Below, one piece after another: positions 22,752-62,650 of a stretch of DNA of 64,000 nucleotides. Both the position numbers and the translations under genes were made by a program. The stretch covers positions 62,001 through 126,000 of the forward strand of contig NZ_CANSMR010000003.1 in assembly GCF_947648125.1 (NCBI RefSeq), in the 5' to 3' direction. The notes below the pieces were generated by a model that was not told the DNA's origin, ran no database searches, and saw only the letters and a program-made list of their open reading frames with translations. Source of the stretch: an uncultured Bradyrhizobium sp. GTDB lineage: Bacteria > Pseudomonadota > Alphaproteobacteria > Rhizobiales > Xanthobacteraceae. The first letter of the stretch is position 1. Every line of letters starts with the position of its first letter.

Positions 22752-23138
22752 ATGAGAACCCAATACAGCGTCACGTTGGCAGTGCTCGCGGGCTTCGGAC
22801 TTGGCGCGGTCGCGGTTCAGGGGCTTCACGCCCAGGCCAAGCCACCCGTCTACCAGGTCGTTGAAATCGACCCCGGGAACATGGAGTCCTATTTGAAGGA
22901 CTACGTCCCGAAAGCTCAGGCCGCGATCAAAGCAGCCGGTGGTAAATTCCTTGCCGCCGGAGGCAAGACCACCACGCTCGAAGGAGAACCGCCGAAACCG
23001 CGCATCGTCATTCAACAGTGGGATAGCCTCGAACAAGTCCAGGCCTACCGCAATTCAGCGGCCTTCAAGGATCTCCTGCCGCTCCGCGACAAGATGGCGA
23101 AATTCCGCAGTTTCGTCGTCGAGGGCGTTCCGCAATAG
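22752..23138 (+). CDS. DUF1330-domain protein with signal peptide
   Basis: The 128-residue protein starts with a hydrophobic export signal (about residues 5-28, ending HAQA) followed by a DUF1330 domain (YQVVEIDPGNMESYLKDYVPKAQAAIKAAGGKFLAAGGKTTTLEG and RIVIQQWDSLEQVQAYRNSAAFKDLLPLRDK). DUF1330 has a dimeric alpha-beta-barrel (ferredoxin-like) fold without an established reaction. Export to the periplasm is inferred from the signal. A strong AGGGGAA precedes ATG 22752. Confidence 0.88.
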   Translation: MRTQYSVTLAVLAGFGLGAVAVQGLHAQAKPPVYQVVEIDPGNMESYLKDYVPKAQAAIKAAGGKFLAAGGKTTTLEGEPPKPRIVIQQWDSLEQVQAYRNSAAFKDLLPLRDKMAKFRSFVVEGVPQ

Positions 23139-23159
23139 CCGATGGATTTTTGCAAAACC

Positions 23160-23183
23160 GAGGCCGCCTGAATTGGCGGCCTC
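23160..23183. terminator. hairpin after DUF1330 gene
   Basis: GAGGCCGCC (23160-23168) and GGCGGCCTC (23175-23183) form a perfect 9-bp stem with a 6-base loop, 21 bp past the stop codon. The T-run is weak, so it may be a bidirectional or Rho-assisted terminator between converging genes. Confidence 0.6.
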
Positions 23184-23404
23184 GTCACTATTCCGAGCGT
23201 CCTGGCGGGTCCGCTCCGCCCGGTCGATGAGGTCGGCTCCGAGTCAAAAGCGCCGTTTTTGACAGTCGGCCGTTCACTTCCGGTCTAACCCATTAATCGG
23301 ACGAACTCGGTGTCGGCCGCCACTTCGCAAAAGGGCCAGGAGCCGACATTTGATTGCGCGCTGCCGGCATACACCAGCAGCCGCAGATTACGATGGGCTA
23401 TCGT

Positions 23405-48512: not shown

Positions 48513-49247
48513 ATGACGACAAACAGTCAGCACGGACATGTGGCGCTGGTGACCGGCGGCTCGCGCGGCATTGGTGCTGCCATCGTCAAGATGCTGGCGG
48601 ACGCTGGCGCTGCCGTCGCCATCAATTACCGCGAGCGGTCGGCTGAAGCGGAAACGCTGGCAAAGGGCATCATCGCTGCCGGCGGCCGCGCCGTCGCGAT
48701 TGGCGCTGACGTCTCGGAAGCGGCCGCCGTCGCCGGGCTGGTCGACCGCGCCAACTCCGAGCTCGGCCCGGTCGACATCCTCGTCAACAATGCGGGGATC
48801 GCGATCGTCAGGGGCGTCGACGACCTCACCGAAGAGGATTTCGACCGCACCATCGCGGTCAACCTCAAATCGGCGTTTCTCTGCACGCAAGCTGTGCTGC
48901 CGATGATGCGCACCCGGAAATGGGGCCGCATCGTCAACATCTCCTCCGGCGCGGCGCGCGGTGCCGGCGCGATCGGGCCGCATTACAACGCGTCGAAGGC
49001 GGCGATGGAGGGCCTGACCCGCGGCTATGCCGCGCGCCTCGTCAAGGAAGGCATCACCGTCAACGCCGTTGCGCCCTCGCTGATCGAGACCGACATGATG
49101 AAGGGACAGAGCGGTCTGGTCAGCCGAATCCCGATCGGCCGCTTCGGCACCGCCGAGGAAGTCGCGCAGGCCGTGATGCTGCTGGTCAATAATCCTTACA
49201 TGACCGGGCAGACCATCGCGATGAGCGGCGGCATGGCGTTCAACTAG
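48513..49247 (+). CDS. SDR-family oxidoreductase (FabG-like)
   Basis: The 244-residue protein has the complete SDR active site: VTGGSRGIG (residues 13-21), NNAG (92-95), Ser145 region NISSGA, Tyr158 and Lys162 in HYNASKAA. It is an NAD(P)(H)-dependent keto-reductase or alcohol dehydrogenase. ATG 48513 follows AAAGGAGG. It stands alone before the trp attenuator. Confidence 0.92.
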   Translation: MTTNSQHGHVALVTGGSRGIGAAIVKMLADAGAAVAINYRERSAEAETLAKGIIAAGGRAVAIGADVSEAAAVAGLVDRANSELGPVDILVNNAGIAIVRGVDDLTEEDFDRTIAVNLKSAFLCTQAVLPMMRTRKWGRIVNISSGAARGAGAIGPHYNASKAAMEGLTRGYAARLVKEGITVNAVAPSLIETDMMKGQSGLVSRIPIGRFGTAEEVAQAVMLLVNNPYMTGQTIAMSGGMAFN

Positions 49248-49257
49248 GCATGCTGGC

Positions 49258-49286
49258 TTGACCGCATCGCAGGTTTGCCCTACCGC
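49258..49286 (+). promoter_or_regulatory. candidate promoter of the trpL-trpS transcript
   Basis: TTGACC (49258-49263) and TACCGC (49281-49286) are separated by 17 bp. The predicted start of transcription falls at or beside the leader ATG 49294, which would make the leader mRNA leaderless, as described for the rhizobial trpE leader. The -10 match is weak. Confidence 0.45.
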
Positions 49287-49293
49287 TTGCGGC

Positions 49294-49341
49294 ATGAACC
49301 GATCGAACCTCATCGCCAATCTCTGGTGGCTCGCCGACTGA
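49294..49341 (+). CDS. trpL: trp leader peptide (attenuator), Trp-Trp
   Basis: ATG 49294 opens a 15-codon frame MNRSNLIANLWWLAD ending at TGA 49339-49341, with two adjacent UGG codons at 49324-49329. No ribosome binding site is visible, which fits initiation at a transcript 5' end. The tandem Trp codons, the following competing hairpins and the downstream trpS gene make this a ribosome-sensing leader peptide. Confidence 0.8.
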   Translation: MNRSNLIANLWWLAD

Positions 49342-49398
49342 AAGGCGGGCCGAACGCGTTCATGCATTTTCGGGGCCGCCGCATTGGGCGGCCTTTTT
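49328..49398 (+). ncRNA. trpS attenuator RNA (competing hairpins with intrinsic terminator)
   Basis: Segment 1 (GGCTCGCC, 49328-49335) can pair with segment 2 (GGCGGGCC, 49344-49351) with one G-U pair. Segment 2 can instead pair with segment 3 (GGGGCCGCC, 49372-49380) as the antiterminator. Segment 3 pairs with segment 4 (GGCGGCC, 49387-49393) as a 7-bp terminator stem followed by TTTTT (49394-49398). Stalling at the Trp codons would cover segment 1 and free the 2:3 antiterminator. Confidence 0.78.
49374..49398 (+). terminator. intrinsic terminator of the trpS attenuator
   Basis: GGCCGCC (49374-49380), loop GCATTG, GGCGGCC (49387-49393), then five T. It lies 32 bp after the leader stop and 57 bp before the trpS ATG. 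Confidence 0.85.
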
Positions 49399-49454
49399 GT
49401 TTGGCATCATCCAGCCCGCATGCGGTGTCCCCATTCAACCGAATGGAGATACAA

Positions 49455-50456
49455 ATGACCAAACCGATCATCCTCACCGGCGACCGCACCACCGGGCCGC
49501 TGCATCTCGGCCATTACGCCGGCTCGCTCCGAAGCCGCCTGACGTATCAGGACAGCCACGAGCAGTTCCTGCTGCTCGCCGACATGCAGGCGCTGACCGA
49601 CAATGCGCACGACATCGGCAAAGTCCGCAGCAACGTCATCGAGGTCGCACTGGATTATCTTGCCGTCGGGATCGATCCCGGCCGCACCTCGATCTGCCTG
49701 CAATCGCAGCTCCCGGCGTTGGCGGAACTGTCGATGCTCTATCTCAACCTCGTCACCGTCGCGCGGCTGGAACGCAACCCCACCATCAAGGACGAGATCC
49801 GCGCACGCGGTTTCGGACGCGACATCCCGGCGGGCTTCCTGTGCTACCCCGTGGCGCAGGCCGCCGATATCACCGCGTTTCGCGCCACAATCGTGCCGGT
49901 CGGCGAGGACCAAGCGCCCCTGATCGAGCAGACCAACGAGATCGTCCGCCGCGTCAACGCGCTCGCCGGCCGCACGTTGCTGCAGGAAGCCGAAGCCATC
50001 ATCCCGCGCGCGGGACGGCTGCCCGGTGTCGACGGACGCGCGAAGATGAGCAAGTCCGCAGGCAACGCGATTCCGCTCTCGGCTTCACCTGATGACATCT
50101 CGGCTGCCGTGCGTGCGATGTTCACCGATCCCGATCATCTGTGTGTCGCCGATCCCGGCAAGGTCGAGGGCAATGTCGTCTTCACCTATCTCGACGCGTT
50201 CGACGACGATCGCGACGCCGTCGAGGAACTGAAGGCGCGCTATCGGCGCGGCGGTCTCGGCGATACGACCGTCAAGCGGCGGCTGGAGGATATCCTGCAA
50301 GCCCTGATCGCGCCGATCCGGACACGACGCGCCGAGCTGGCCAACGATCGCGGCCATGTCACTGAGGTGATCAGGCGCGGAACCCTGAAGGCGCGGGAGG
50401 TTACGGAGCGCACCAGGCGCGACATCATGGCGGGGCTCGGCTTGTTCCAGCTCTGA
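49455..50456 (+). CDS. trpS: tryptophanyl-tRNA synthetase, Firmicutes-type variant
   Basis: ATG 49455, with GGAG six bases upstream, gives 333 residues. The start MTKPIILTGDRTTGPLHLGHYAGSL carries the class I HIGH-type motif (HLGH), and the KMSKS loop appears as GRAKMSKSAGN. In most proteobacterial TrpRS the first motif is SGxQPSG...GN. The GDRxTGxLHxGHYVGSL form, and long stretches such as ALAELSMLYLNLVTVARLERNPT, are what I know from streptococcal and clostridial TrpRS. This suggests an acquired second enzyme. It charges tRNA-Trp. The upstream attenuator should raise expression when charged tRNA-Trp falls. Confidence 0.93.
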   Translation: MTKPIILTGDRTTGPLHLGHYAGSLRSRLTYQDSHEQFLLLADMQALTDNAHDIGKVRSNVIEVALDYLAVGIDPGRTSICLQSQLPALAELSMLYLNLVTVARLERNPTIKDEIRARGFGRDIPAGFLCYPVAQAADITAFRATIVPVGEDQAPLIEQTNEIVRRVNALAGRTLLQEAEAIIPRAGRLPGVDGRAKMSKSAGNAIPLSASPDDISAAVRAMFTDPDHLCVADPGKVEGNVVFTYLDAFDDDRDAVEELKARYRRGGLGDTTVKRRLEDILQALIAPIRTRRAELANDRGHVTEVIRRGTLKAREVTERTRRDIMAGLGLFQL

Positions 50457-61639: not shown

Positions 61640-62650
61640 CTAGCCGCTATTGCGCAGCACCAGTTCGAAGCCGAGATCGATGCGGCGCTCGCCGCCACGC
61701 TCCAGCGTCAGCGTTGCGGCGGTACGGCCGATCGCGTCGCCATGCACGCTGATCGTGCTCAGGGTCGGCGAGATCAGCTGGCCCATCTCGAGATCGCCAA
61801 GCCCGATCACGGCGACCGGCTGCGCCGATGCAGGCCCGTCGCGCAACAGCCCGGCCTTGCGCAGCCCCGACATGAAGCCGATCGCATGGGCATCGTTGGC
61901 GGCGAACACGGCGTCGACATCTTGCAGGCGCGCATGCGCCGCCACGCTGCCGGAGTCCTTGCGGTCGAGGATCAGCCGTCGCGGCTCGGATAGACCGCTT
62001 GCCAGCGCCTCGTCCCTGAAGCCGAACCAGCGGCGGGTGCCGCGCGGATCATCGCCGCCGATGAAGGCGAGCTGCCTGCGCCCTTGCGCAACCAGATGCT
62101 TCGCGACAGCGACACCGGCCTTGTAATTGTCGAAGCCCGCGACCGCATCGATCGGGTTGGCCGGCAGGTCCCAGGTCTCGACGATCGGGATCCGCGCATT
62201 GCGCAGCAGGCGGCTGCCCTCTTCCGTTGCCGGCGAGCCGACCATGATGATCGCCTCCGGCCGCCGCGACAGCAGCGCCGCCAGCACGCGGTCCTCGCGT
62301 ACCGCATCATAGCGCGACTGCGCCAGGATCACGGAGAAGCCGAGCGGCTCGAGCTTGTCGGACAGGCCCTGCACCGTGTCGGCGAAGATCGAGTTGGCGA
62401 TGGTCGGCACCAGCACGCCGACCGAATTGGTCCGCGCACTCGCCAGCGCGCCAGCCACCAGGTTCGGGACATAGCCGAGGTCGCGCATCGCCCGCTCGAC
62501 CCGCGCCCGGGTCTCCGGGGCAACCAGATCGGGCATCCGGACCACCCGGCTCACCGTGATCGAGGAGACGCCGGCGCGCTTGGCCACCTCTGAAAGGGTG
62601 GGCGCGGCACCGGTCGGGCCGGTCCCGGATTCGGTCAGGTCGGAGCTCAT
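61640..62650 (-). CDS. LacI-family transcriptional regulator
   Basis: ATG 62650 gives 336 residues: an HTH (PTLSEVAKRAGVSSITVSRVVRMPDLVAPETRARVERAMRDLGYVPNLVAGALASARTNSVGVLVP) with the usual hinge and a periplasmic-binding-like effector domain (AIIMVGSP, FDNYKAGVAVAKHL, AVFAANDAHAIGFM). It resembles gluconate-operon GntR-type LacI regulators. Its operators lie in the gap to the divergent dioxygenase (62687-62725). Confidence 0.93.
   Translation of the reverse strand: MSSDLTESGTGPTGAAPTLSEVAKRAGVSSITVSRVVRMPDLVAPETRARVERAMRDLGYVPNLVAGALASARTNSVGVLVPTIANSIFADTVQGLSDKLEPLGFSVILAQSRYDAVREDRVLAALLSRRPEAIIMVGSPATEEGSRLLRNARIPIVETWDLPANPIDAVAGFDNYKAGVAVAKHLVAQGRRQLAFIGGDDPRGTRRWFGFRDEALASGLSEPRRLILDRKDSGSVAAHARLQDVDAVFAANDAHAIGFMSGLRKAGLLRDGPASAQPVAVIGLGDLEMGQLISPTLSTISVHGDAIGRTAATLTLERGGERRIDLGFELVLRNSG

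Follow-up and report, generated by a model that had tools for sequence, protein, structure and literature searches.

A Trp-Trp leader with predicted attenuator function precedes an auxiliary tryptophanyl-tRNA synthetase gene in Bradyrhizobium and other Proteobacteria

Introduction

Why should a Bradyrhizobium carry a tryptophanyl-tRNA synthetase (TrpRS) gene behind a very short reading frame with two adjacent Trp codons? The question is raised by a locus in the 64,000-nt stretch of DNA analyzed here (hereafter, the window; contig NZ_CANSMR010000003.1 of an uncultured Bradyrhizobium sp., positions 62,001 to 126,000). TrpRS is a proposed antibacterial target, according to excerpts from PMC10201369. 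A sequence-only reading of the window had described the gene, here called trpS2, as an auxiliary TrpRS gene with a leader attenuator, acquired by its host and induced by starvation or inhibitors. This reading was largely right, as the anatomy, the tree, the conservation of the leader, and the presence of a second trpS agree with it, and trpS2 is very probably an acquired auxiliary TrpRS gene of the TrpRS II type under ribosome-mediated attenuation. The anatomy, conservation, and folding switch of the trpS2 leader were established computationally and are described below, followed by the enzyme, its predicted role, and the relation of the leader to known attenuators.

Anatomy of the leader RNA

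The 15-codon frame with two adjacent UGG codons, the hairpins, the terminator with a 7-bp stem and five T, and the trpS gene reported earlier are all present in the sequence, and further elements were identified as follows.

49258-49286, + strand: promoter-like sequence TTGACC-17-TACCGC, with the -10 end 7 nt 5' of the leader ATG (leader comparison)
49294-49341, + strand: leader ORF MNRSNLIANLWWLAD, 15 codons plus stop (sequence; conserved Trp-Trp)
49292-49299 with 49358-49365, + strand: helix of the leader start region GCATGAAC with the spacer between elements 2 and 3, GTTCATGC (p 0.005)
49328-49335 with 49344-49351, + strand: hairpin 1:2, overlapping the second Trp codon (fold and covariation)
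49344-49380, + strand: antiterminator 2:3, 49344-49348 with 49376-49380 and 49350-49354 with 49369-49373 (co-transcriptional folding)
49372-49398, + strand: intrinsic terminator 3:4a, loop GCATTG, five T at 49394-49398 (terminator scan)
49420-49427, + strand: element 4b ATGCGGTG, complementary to CGCCGCAT of the terminator arm and loop at 49377-49384 (shuffles, p 0.018)
49425-49452, + strand: hairpin closing the Shine-Dalgarno (SD) sequence, GTGTC-CCATTC / GAATGG-GATAC (-14.1 kcal/mol, p 0.015)
49445-49448, + strand: SD sequence GGAG of trpS2 (sequence)
49455 (start) to 50456 (stop), + strand: trpS2, auxiliary TrpRS of the TrpRS II type, 333 aa, Gln45 (sequence, tree, and alignment)

The two UGG codons are codons 11 and 12 of the leader ORF (49324-49329). 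The core of the terminator is a 7-bp GC helix (49374-49380 with 49387-49393), or 9 bp when G-U pairs are counted, and two overlapping terminator-like sites were found within 49100-49600, where 0.3 were expected. The leader of the window folded better than all 200 of its dinucleotide shuffles (z -4.1). No family of Rfam 15 reached its gathering score on this leader, and four gathering-level matches over 14 related loci included no trpS2 leader RNA. As side observations, Rfam matches were recorded for a Guanidine-II riboswitch 3' of the Silicibacter trpS2 (L046:6281-6328, - strand) and for a group II intron (L107:1999-2075) near the trpS2 of a MAG filed as Deltaproteobacteria/Myxococcota.

The helix between the leader start region and the 2-3 spacer was found with the same pairing and different letters in L020 and L176, and it was weak or absent in L042 and L045-L048 (p 0.12-0.99). 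Such a helix could limit re-initiation on the leader.

Conservation of the leader across TrpRS-II loci

Leaders were called by a strict rule, i.e., an ATG-initiated ORF of 8-34 codons with Trp-Trp near its end, located not more than 330 nt upstream. By this rule, a Trp-Trp leader was present at 81 of 134 TrpRS-II loci, compared with 0.24 expected from dinucleotide shuffles, and at 80 of 133 distinct loci when a repeated locus was counted once. The repeated locus is L023 of the same-genus set, which is identical over 3996 bases to L054 (Bradyrhizobium murdochi) and was entered twice in the Trp-Trp (134), promoter (86), terminator (37/86), and 3:4b (85) counts. The broken copies G110 and G452 were left out of the leader table, as were the duplicates L003, L122, and L123 from the counts. 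All 30 Bradyrhizobium loci read had the Trp-Trp leader, and four further loci (L058, L095, L096, and L100) had Trp-Trp with a longer tail. Seven loci (L072, L098, L101, L102, L108, L121, and L126) carried a single-Trp leader, accepted by eye on a WRR/WRS-like context together with a hairpin; a bare single-Trp rule would add ten matches that look like chance. The single-Trp leader of L072 has TGC as its second codon. Among the other 42 TrpRS-II loci, which had no leader, 27 belonged to Acinetobacter or Cupriavidus. The N-terminal half of the leader peptide differs between clades.

The pairing of the stems was compared over 19 aligned class-A leaders. Helices 1:2 and 3:4a were paired in 95.8% of cells versus 92.2% after shuffling, and cells changed on both sides numbered 10 versus 5.0, a value reached in none of 500 shuffles; these changes involved two pairs, a number not above shuffles. 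The covariation came mainly from one column pair of hairpin 1:2, which was C-G in nine rows and G-C or G-U in nine rows. The core helix of the terminator was paired in 100% of the cells of the 19 rows and nearly invariant. No compensatory change was seen in the antiterminator 2:3 across the aligned leaders because arm 3 is nearly invariant. The conservation of the Trp codons and stems in related loci, proposed earlier as a check, was thus found, with compensatory changes in hairpin 1:2. A hairpin with a T-rich tail was detected by a loose rule in 37 of the 86 loci with Trp-Trp leaders and was absent from 49.

These data also bear on the simplest alternative, in which the terminator simply serves the dehydrogenase gene upstream, the short ORF arose by chance, and trpS is unregulated. 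The dehydrogenase gene does end at 49247 on the same strand, as this alternative would have it. However, the excess of Trp-Trp leaders over shuffles and the compensatory changes speak against it, and in L013, L014, L015, and L017, which have approximately 100-240 nt more between the dehydrogenase gene and trpS2, the leader is still kept. We therefore rejected this explanation, which is extremely improbable, on the conservation of the leader.

A generic promoter scan of the window region returned no sites. In the comparison of 86 leaders, a TTG-type -35 element was present in 76 and a -10-like element ended 7-8 nt before the leader ATG in 70 (the scan had a floor of 7 nt), with a mean promoter-like score of 7.67 versus 6.24 for shuffled sequences. 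An SD-like motif 5' of the leader ATG was found in only five of these 86 leaders. The predicted transcript start lies almost at the leader ATG. Since most leader ORFs have no SD and a -10-like element 7-8 nt before the ATG, the leader ORF is probably translated from a leaderless 5' end.

Folding switch and predicted attenuation

Co-transcriptional folding was modeled with the 3' end set just before element 4a and with the position of the ribosome varied, using E. coli trpL as a positive control. In the window, the probability of the antiterminator 2:3 was 0.78 with the ribosome stalled at either Trp codon, 0.13 with the ribosome at the stop codon, and 0.01 with no ribosome. The corresponding values were 0.73, 0.29, and 0.10 over 37 terminator-bearing loci and 0.71, 0.01, and 0.08 for E. 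coli trpL folded in the same way. Stalling brought 2:3 to at least 0.5 in 35 of the 37 loci, and 2:3 was still at least 0.5 with the ribosome at the stop codon in eight of them. The competing hairpins noted earlier were thus recovered as mutually exclusive forms, with 2:3 formed while the ribosome is stalled at the Trp codons, in computations whose 3' end lay before 4a. In equilibrium folding, the terminator won at any ribosome position in 35 of the 37 loci, including the window (L044 and L047 differed). The switch must therefore be kinetic, because at equilibrium the terminator wins regardless of the ribosome. The choice made by the E. coli trp attenuator is likewise kinetic.

From these structures we infer stalling, read-through, and induction at the trpS2 leader as follows. 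With enough charged tRNA-Trp, the lead ribosome would reach the leader stop codon and cover element 2, the terminator 3:4a would form, and the transcript would end after approximately 105 nt. A fall in charged tRNA-Trp, whether through tryptophan shortage or through inhibition of the housekeeping TrpRS, would make the ribosome stall at UGG-UGG and cover element 1; element 2 would then pair with element 3, no terminator would form, and trpS2 would be transcribed.

Element 4b, a third partner of arm 3

At p<=0.05, 80 of 85 loci exceeded shuffles in the complementarity of element 4b to the 5' arm and loop of the terminator, and 59 did so at p<=0.01 (L058 was missed by this count); the five loci not above shuffles were L021, L032, L095, L103, and L134. 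Among 49 distinct cases, 46 carried the element 13-29 nt upstream of the start. The letters of arm 3 and 4b co-vary between loci, as CGCCGCAT/ATGCGGTG in the window and as CCGCCGTTC/GAACGGCGG, GCCGCCGTGAT/ATCGCGGCGGC, GCCGCTGCT/AGCAGCGGC, GCTGCTGGA/TCCAGTAGC, and GCCGAAAGG/CCTTTCGGC elsewhere. Own partners gave -20.4 versus -15.0 for swapped ones. The own 4b was the best of 49 partners in only eight cases, because the GCCGCC core is common, and it was within the best tenth in 24. The 3:4b helix was also present in L193 (p 0.018), a trpS2 locus found later by an RNA model. Neither E. coli trpL (p 0.21) nor three alphaproteobacterial trpE leaders (p 0.054, 0.456, and 0.108) showed it clearly, and the trpE leader of the own genome showed it weakly (p 0.036).

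Element 4b is also part of the hairpin that closes the SD sequence, which puts arm 3 and the SD in competition for it. At least 75% of the SD was paired in 54 of 70 loci, and the SD hairpin was better than shuffles (p<=0.05) in 31 of 70. In equilibrium folding, the accessibility of the SD changed by almost nothing between the stalled and stop states (mean +0.014), and the accessibility of SD and AUG together was up in 37 and down in eight of 82 loci. These results suggest, with less certainty than for the transcriptional switch and as a matter of pairing logic rather than of energy, that a freed arm 3 captures 4b and exposes the SD on starvation, acting as a second, translational lock.

Taken together, a double-lock attenuator can be proposed tentatively, jointly with the loss of locks by lineage, an origin from a trp-operon-type leader, and carriage by a mobile gene; the combination may hold, but we rate it somewhat short of probable. 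The arm and loop of the terminator (element 3) would be a hub with three exclusive partners: pairing with 4a would end transcription, pairing with 2 would permit it, and a freed element 3 would capture 4b and release the SD or the start codon. Both locks would be kept in the window, Ruegeria, and Massilia, and loss of the T-run would leave the translational lock only in Bradyrhizobium class B (e.g., L023), Rhizobium L057, and the AT-rich L137/L140. The starting point would be a leader of the trp-operon type that probably traveled with a mobile synthetase gene, and this leader would have been lost where TrpRS II became the sole TrpRS (Acinetobacter and several Cupriavidus). Such a predicted RNA device, in which one arm controls both termination and the start of translation, suggests a route by which an operon attenuator comes to serve a mobile gene and disappears once the gene becomes essential.

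The enzyme: type, descent, and neighbors

The trpS2 protein matched the NCBIfam trpS model with 219.5 bits (cut-off, 176.75) and Pfam PF00579. Three PF00579 proteins were found in the own genome, of which TIGR00233 identified two as TrpRS, namely trpS2 and one on contig C10. The housekeeping trpS that the earlier reading had advised seeking is therefore present; its product is approximately 30% identical to the trpS2 protein, and its gene had no Trp-Trp leader.

The tree had 69 rows, and the enzyme of the window fell among 41 proteobacterial rows forming one clade (100/99), a Myxococcota MAG included. This clade lies in a larger one of 47 rows (100/92), together with the Deinococcus TrpRS II and with plasmid-borne copies from Staphylococcus, Enterococcus, Lactobacillus, and Bacteroides. 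Two actinobacterial copies (L177/L178) fell just outside the latter clade, and the 16 other TrpRS of these genomes were elsewhere, so the tree sets this TrpRS apart from ordinary alphaproteobacterial enzymes. The closest solved relative was Deinococcus TrpRS II (379 bits; next, 221). The TrpRS had earlier been assigned a Firmicutes form. This stands insofar as the TrpRS II type includes Firmicutes plasmid copies; it does not describe the window copy itself, which lies within the proteobacterial clade. An alphaproteobacterial origin of the enzyme was rejected on the tree. A specifically Firmicutes origin is not supported either, as the nearest relatives are proteobacterial, with the Firmicutes/Bacteroidota plasmid copies and the Deinococcus TrpRS II outside.

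Because four Bradyrhizobium lineages (L012, L022, L026, and L038) occupy separate places in the tree, several acquisitions within the genus are suggested. Among the matches listed, the trpS2 type was present in 33 of 146 Bradyrhizobium-genus genomes, and some match, weaker housekeeping-type rows included, in 143 of 146. The copies of G110, G077, and G039 were in pieces or partial. This patchy presence, with some copies broken, and the four branches support the earlier claim of an acquired gene.

The trpS2 gene is adjoined by genes for a dehydrogenase (upstream, + strand), an aldose epimerase, and a DUF3830 protein. Over 29 other Bradyrhizobium loci and L042, eight shared the upstream dehydrogenase gene of the window and nine the downstream aldose epimerase gene. 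In a plasmid collection, 90 records matched at E 1e-60, a few of them chromosome-sized. By genus, the plasmid records of TrpRS II comprised 24 from Staphylococcus and 21-22 from Klebsiella, along with others from Enterococcus, Lactobacillus, and Bacteroides; in at least ten of the Klebsiella-type records, the match began only at residue 79. Of these plasmid copies, the leaders of L175 and L176 were read. The 9,295-base Streptomyces 'plasmid' NZ_CP107771 (H72) encodes a TrpRS that matches that of the window no less closely than the Staphylococcus copies do (52%), and contamination is suspected.

Predicted role of trpS2

The leader and a second TrpRS tend to occur together. In 72 genomes, we counted 50 with a leader and a second TrpRS, three with a leader and a sole TrpRS, three with a second TrpRS and no leader, and 16 with neither (Fisher p 2e-10, which is a guide only, given the non-independence of related genomes and the draft state of some). 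Two genomes with broken copies were left out of this count, which covered 49 of the 80 named loci and not L042. TrpRS II was the sole TrpRS found behind a leader in G433, L100, and L110, and the leader was missing despite a second TrpRS in G312, L052, and L114. Sole TrpRS II without a leader was observed in all four Acinetobacter genomes tested and in three of five Cupriavidus genomes (L061, L063, L067, L071, L074, L077, L082, and others).

S. coelicolor TrpRS has Gln at the position that contacts indolmycin. In Bacillus stearothermophilus, the contact is made by His43, and replacement of His by Asn gives resistance, as described in excerpts from PMC4899734; the contact is also mentioned in parts of PMC9071491. 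Of 140 TrpRS-II rows, 137 were readable at this position and all had Gln (the remaining three, two with a gap and one a misaligned piece, were broken copies); the 20 other TrpRS in the same genomes, given as 21 rows with the own enzyme repeated, all had His. His was also present in Thermus, Thermotoga, 6ncr, and two proteobacterial rows, and Gln in two actinobacterial rows. This circumstantial evidence supports a predicted insensitivity of trpS2 to indolmycin. Since Gln replaces the indolmycin-contact His of sensitive enzymes, the trpS2 enzyme probably restores Trp-tRNA once the housekeeping TrpRS is poisoned. If true, Proteobacteria would hold a widespread, inducible spare TrpRS that answers the failure of an essential enzyme and is predicted to be insensitive to indolmycin-type inhibitors.

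A starvation back-up, in which the same attenuator serves an enzyme for scarce tryptophan (e.g., of higher affinity) and Gln is an unselected family trait, is a real possibility, albeit a rather doubtful one. With charged tRNA-Trp as its signal, the sensor cannot distinguish scarcity from inhibition, trpE of the own genome likewise has a Trp-Trp leader, and Gln is found clade-wide, including genomes with TrpRS II as the only TrpRS found. However, a second synthetase makes no tryptophan, and a resistant isoenzyme would better explain a spare, patchily distributed copy.

A partnership with NO synthase in the nitration of tryptophan, as reported for Deinococcus, is very improbable. It is suggested by the relationship to Deinococcus TrpRS II, whose link with NO synthase is described in excerpts from a review of duplicated synthetases (PMC9437257). 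The NO synthase domain PF02898 was nevertheless found in only one of 48 trpS2-bearing genomes (G309) and was missing from the other 47, including the own genome, and the partnership was rejected on this ground; in the set of 14 controls, the PF02898 signal came from Bacillus subtilis and Deinobacterium. By these profile searches, trpS2 is a TrpRS II by descent only, not by NO-synthase function.

Relation to trpE leaders and known attenuators

A covariance model was built from the 19 class-A trpS2 leaders and searched over 289 alphaproteobacterial genomes. Matches were obtained in 14, and the best six consisted of three trpS2 leaders (own, G219, and G814) and three leaders of anthranilate synthase genes (G742, G830, and G387), the genes after the latter encoding the Pfam domains Chorismate_bind and Anth_synt_I_N. 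The trpE leader peptide of G830, MNRSIMIARRWWWRS, resembles MNRSILIANFWWLAD of L017, and its start is identical over 18 nt to that of L017 and over 14 nt to that of the window. A common origin of the trpS2 and trpE leaders is likely from these matches. No Trp-Trp leader was seen at the weaker matches L195-L202 (E 0.001-0.008), several of which were plain terminators, and a match within the window at 23055-23189 (+ strand; 14.1 bits, E 0.065) is probably due to chance. Scans of the own genome for UGG patterns returned 14 and 59 sites, none usable. The trpE gene of the own genome (G000:C3 near 478,600, L188) has the Trp-Trp leader MSTVASPSRRWWPTFS, after which no long T-run was seen.

The rhizobial trpE leader RNA rnTrpL acts in trans. 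The terminated RNA or leader peptide of trpS2 might do the same, given that the trpS2 model finds trpE leaders (E 2.4e-7 to 3.1e-5 per genome), which are probably related, and that the leader RNA seems to begin at its AUG. This additional action is improbable, as no target is known and the N-terminal half of the peptide varies between clades.

The trpS2 leader is similar to trp attenuators (E. coli trpL and alphaproteobacterial trpE) in its WW/WWW leader peptide, its 1:2 / 2:3 / 3:4 logic, and its folding behavior; it differs in governing a synthetase and in its clear 3:4b helix. Streptomyces TrpRS1 is reportedly indolmycin-resistant and attenuated (Vecchione and Sello). As far as the partial texts go, an attenuator was proposed for trpS2 of S. 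avermitilis (PMC1262725), and S. lividans trpL2-trpS has a leader ORF with a Trp codon and a proposed attenuator (PMC8079986). Both resemble the present system in a short Trp-codon leader ORF and a proposed attenuator before a TrpRS gene, but both are actinobacterial, the S. lividans leader MMTRTCTQLWRAA has one Trp, and a third helix that involves an SD element is not mentioned in the excerpts. Deinococcus radiodurans TrpRS II shares the clade and the Gln with trpS2 and differs in that the own genome has no NO synthase. For Caulobacter, a small leader ORF on the trpS mRNA is noted in part of PMC4117421. Streptomyces trpS attenuators are therefore already published, and the proteobacterial trpS2 leader family and the third partner of arm 3 appear new here; the family was not found in a full-text literature search, outside whose scope many subscription papers lay, and priority is thus not proven.

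An auxiliary TrpRS has also been described in Salmonella, where, in excerpts from PMC3487940, trpS2 (STM4508) is 28% identical to trpS, which tolerates insertions, perhaps owing to trpS2; these excerpts report no attenuator. Salmonella trpS2 is 2-fold up in biofilm, according to part of PMC2805695, and the string 'attenuat' is absent from the main text of that paper and of PMC9437257. Trp-Trp leaders were found in L136, L138, L139, and L142, which are putative orthologues of Salmonella trpS2, and in the tree L138 clusters with a plasmid copy from E. coli.
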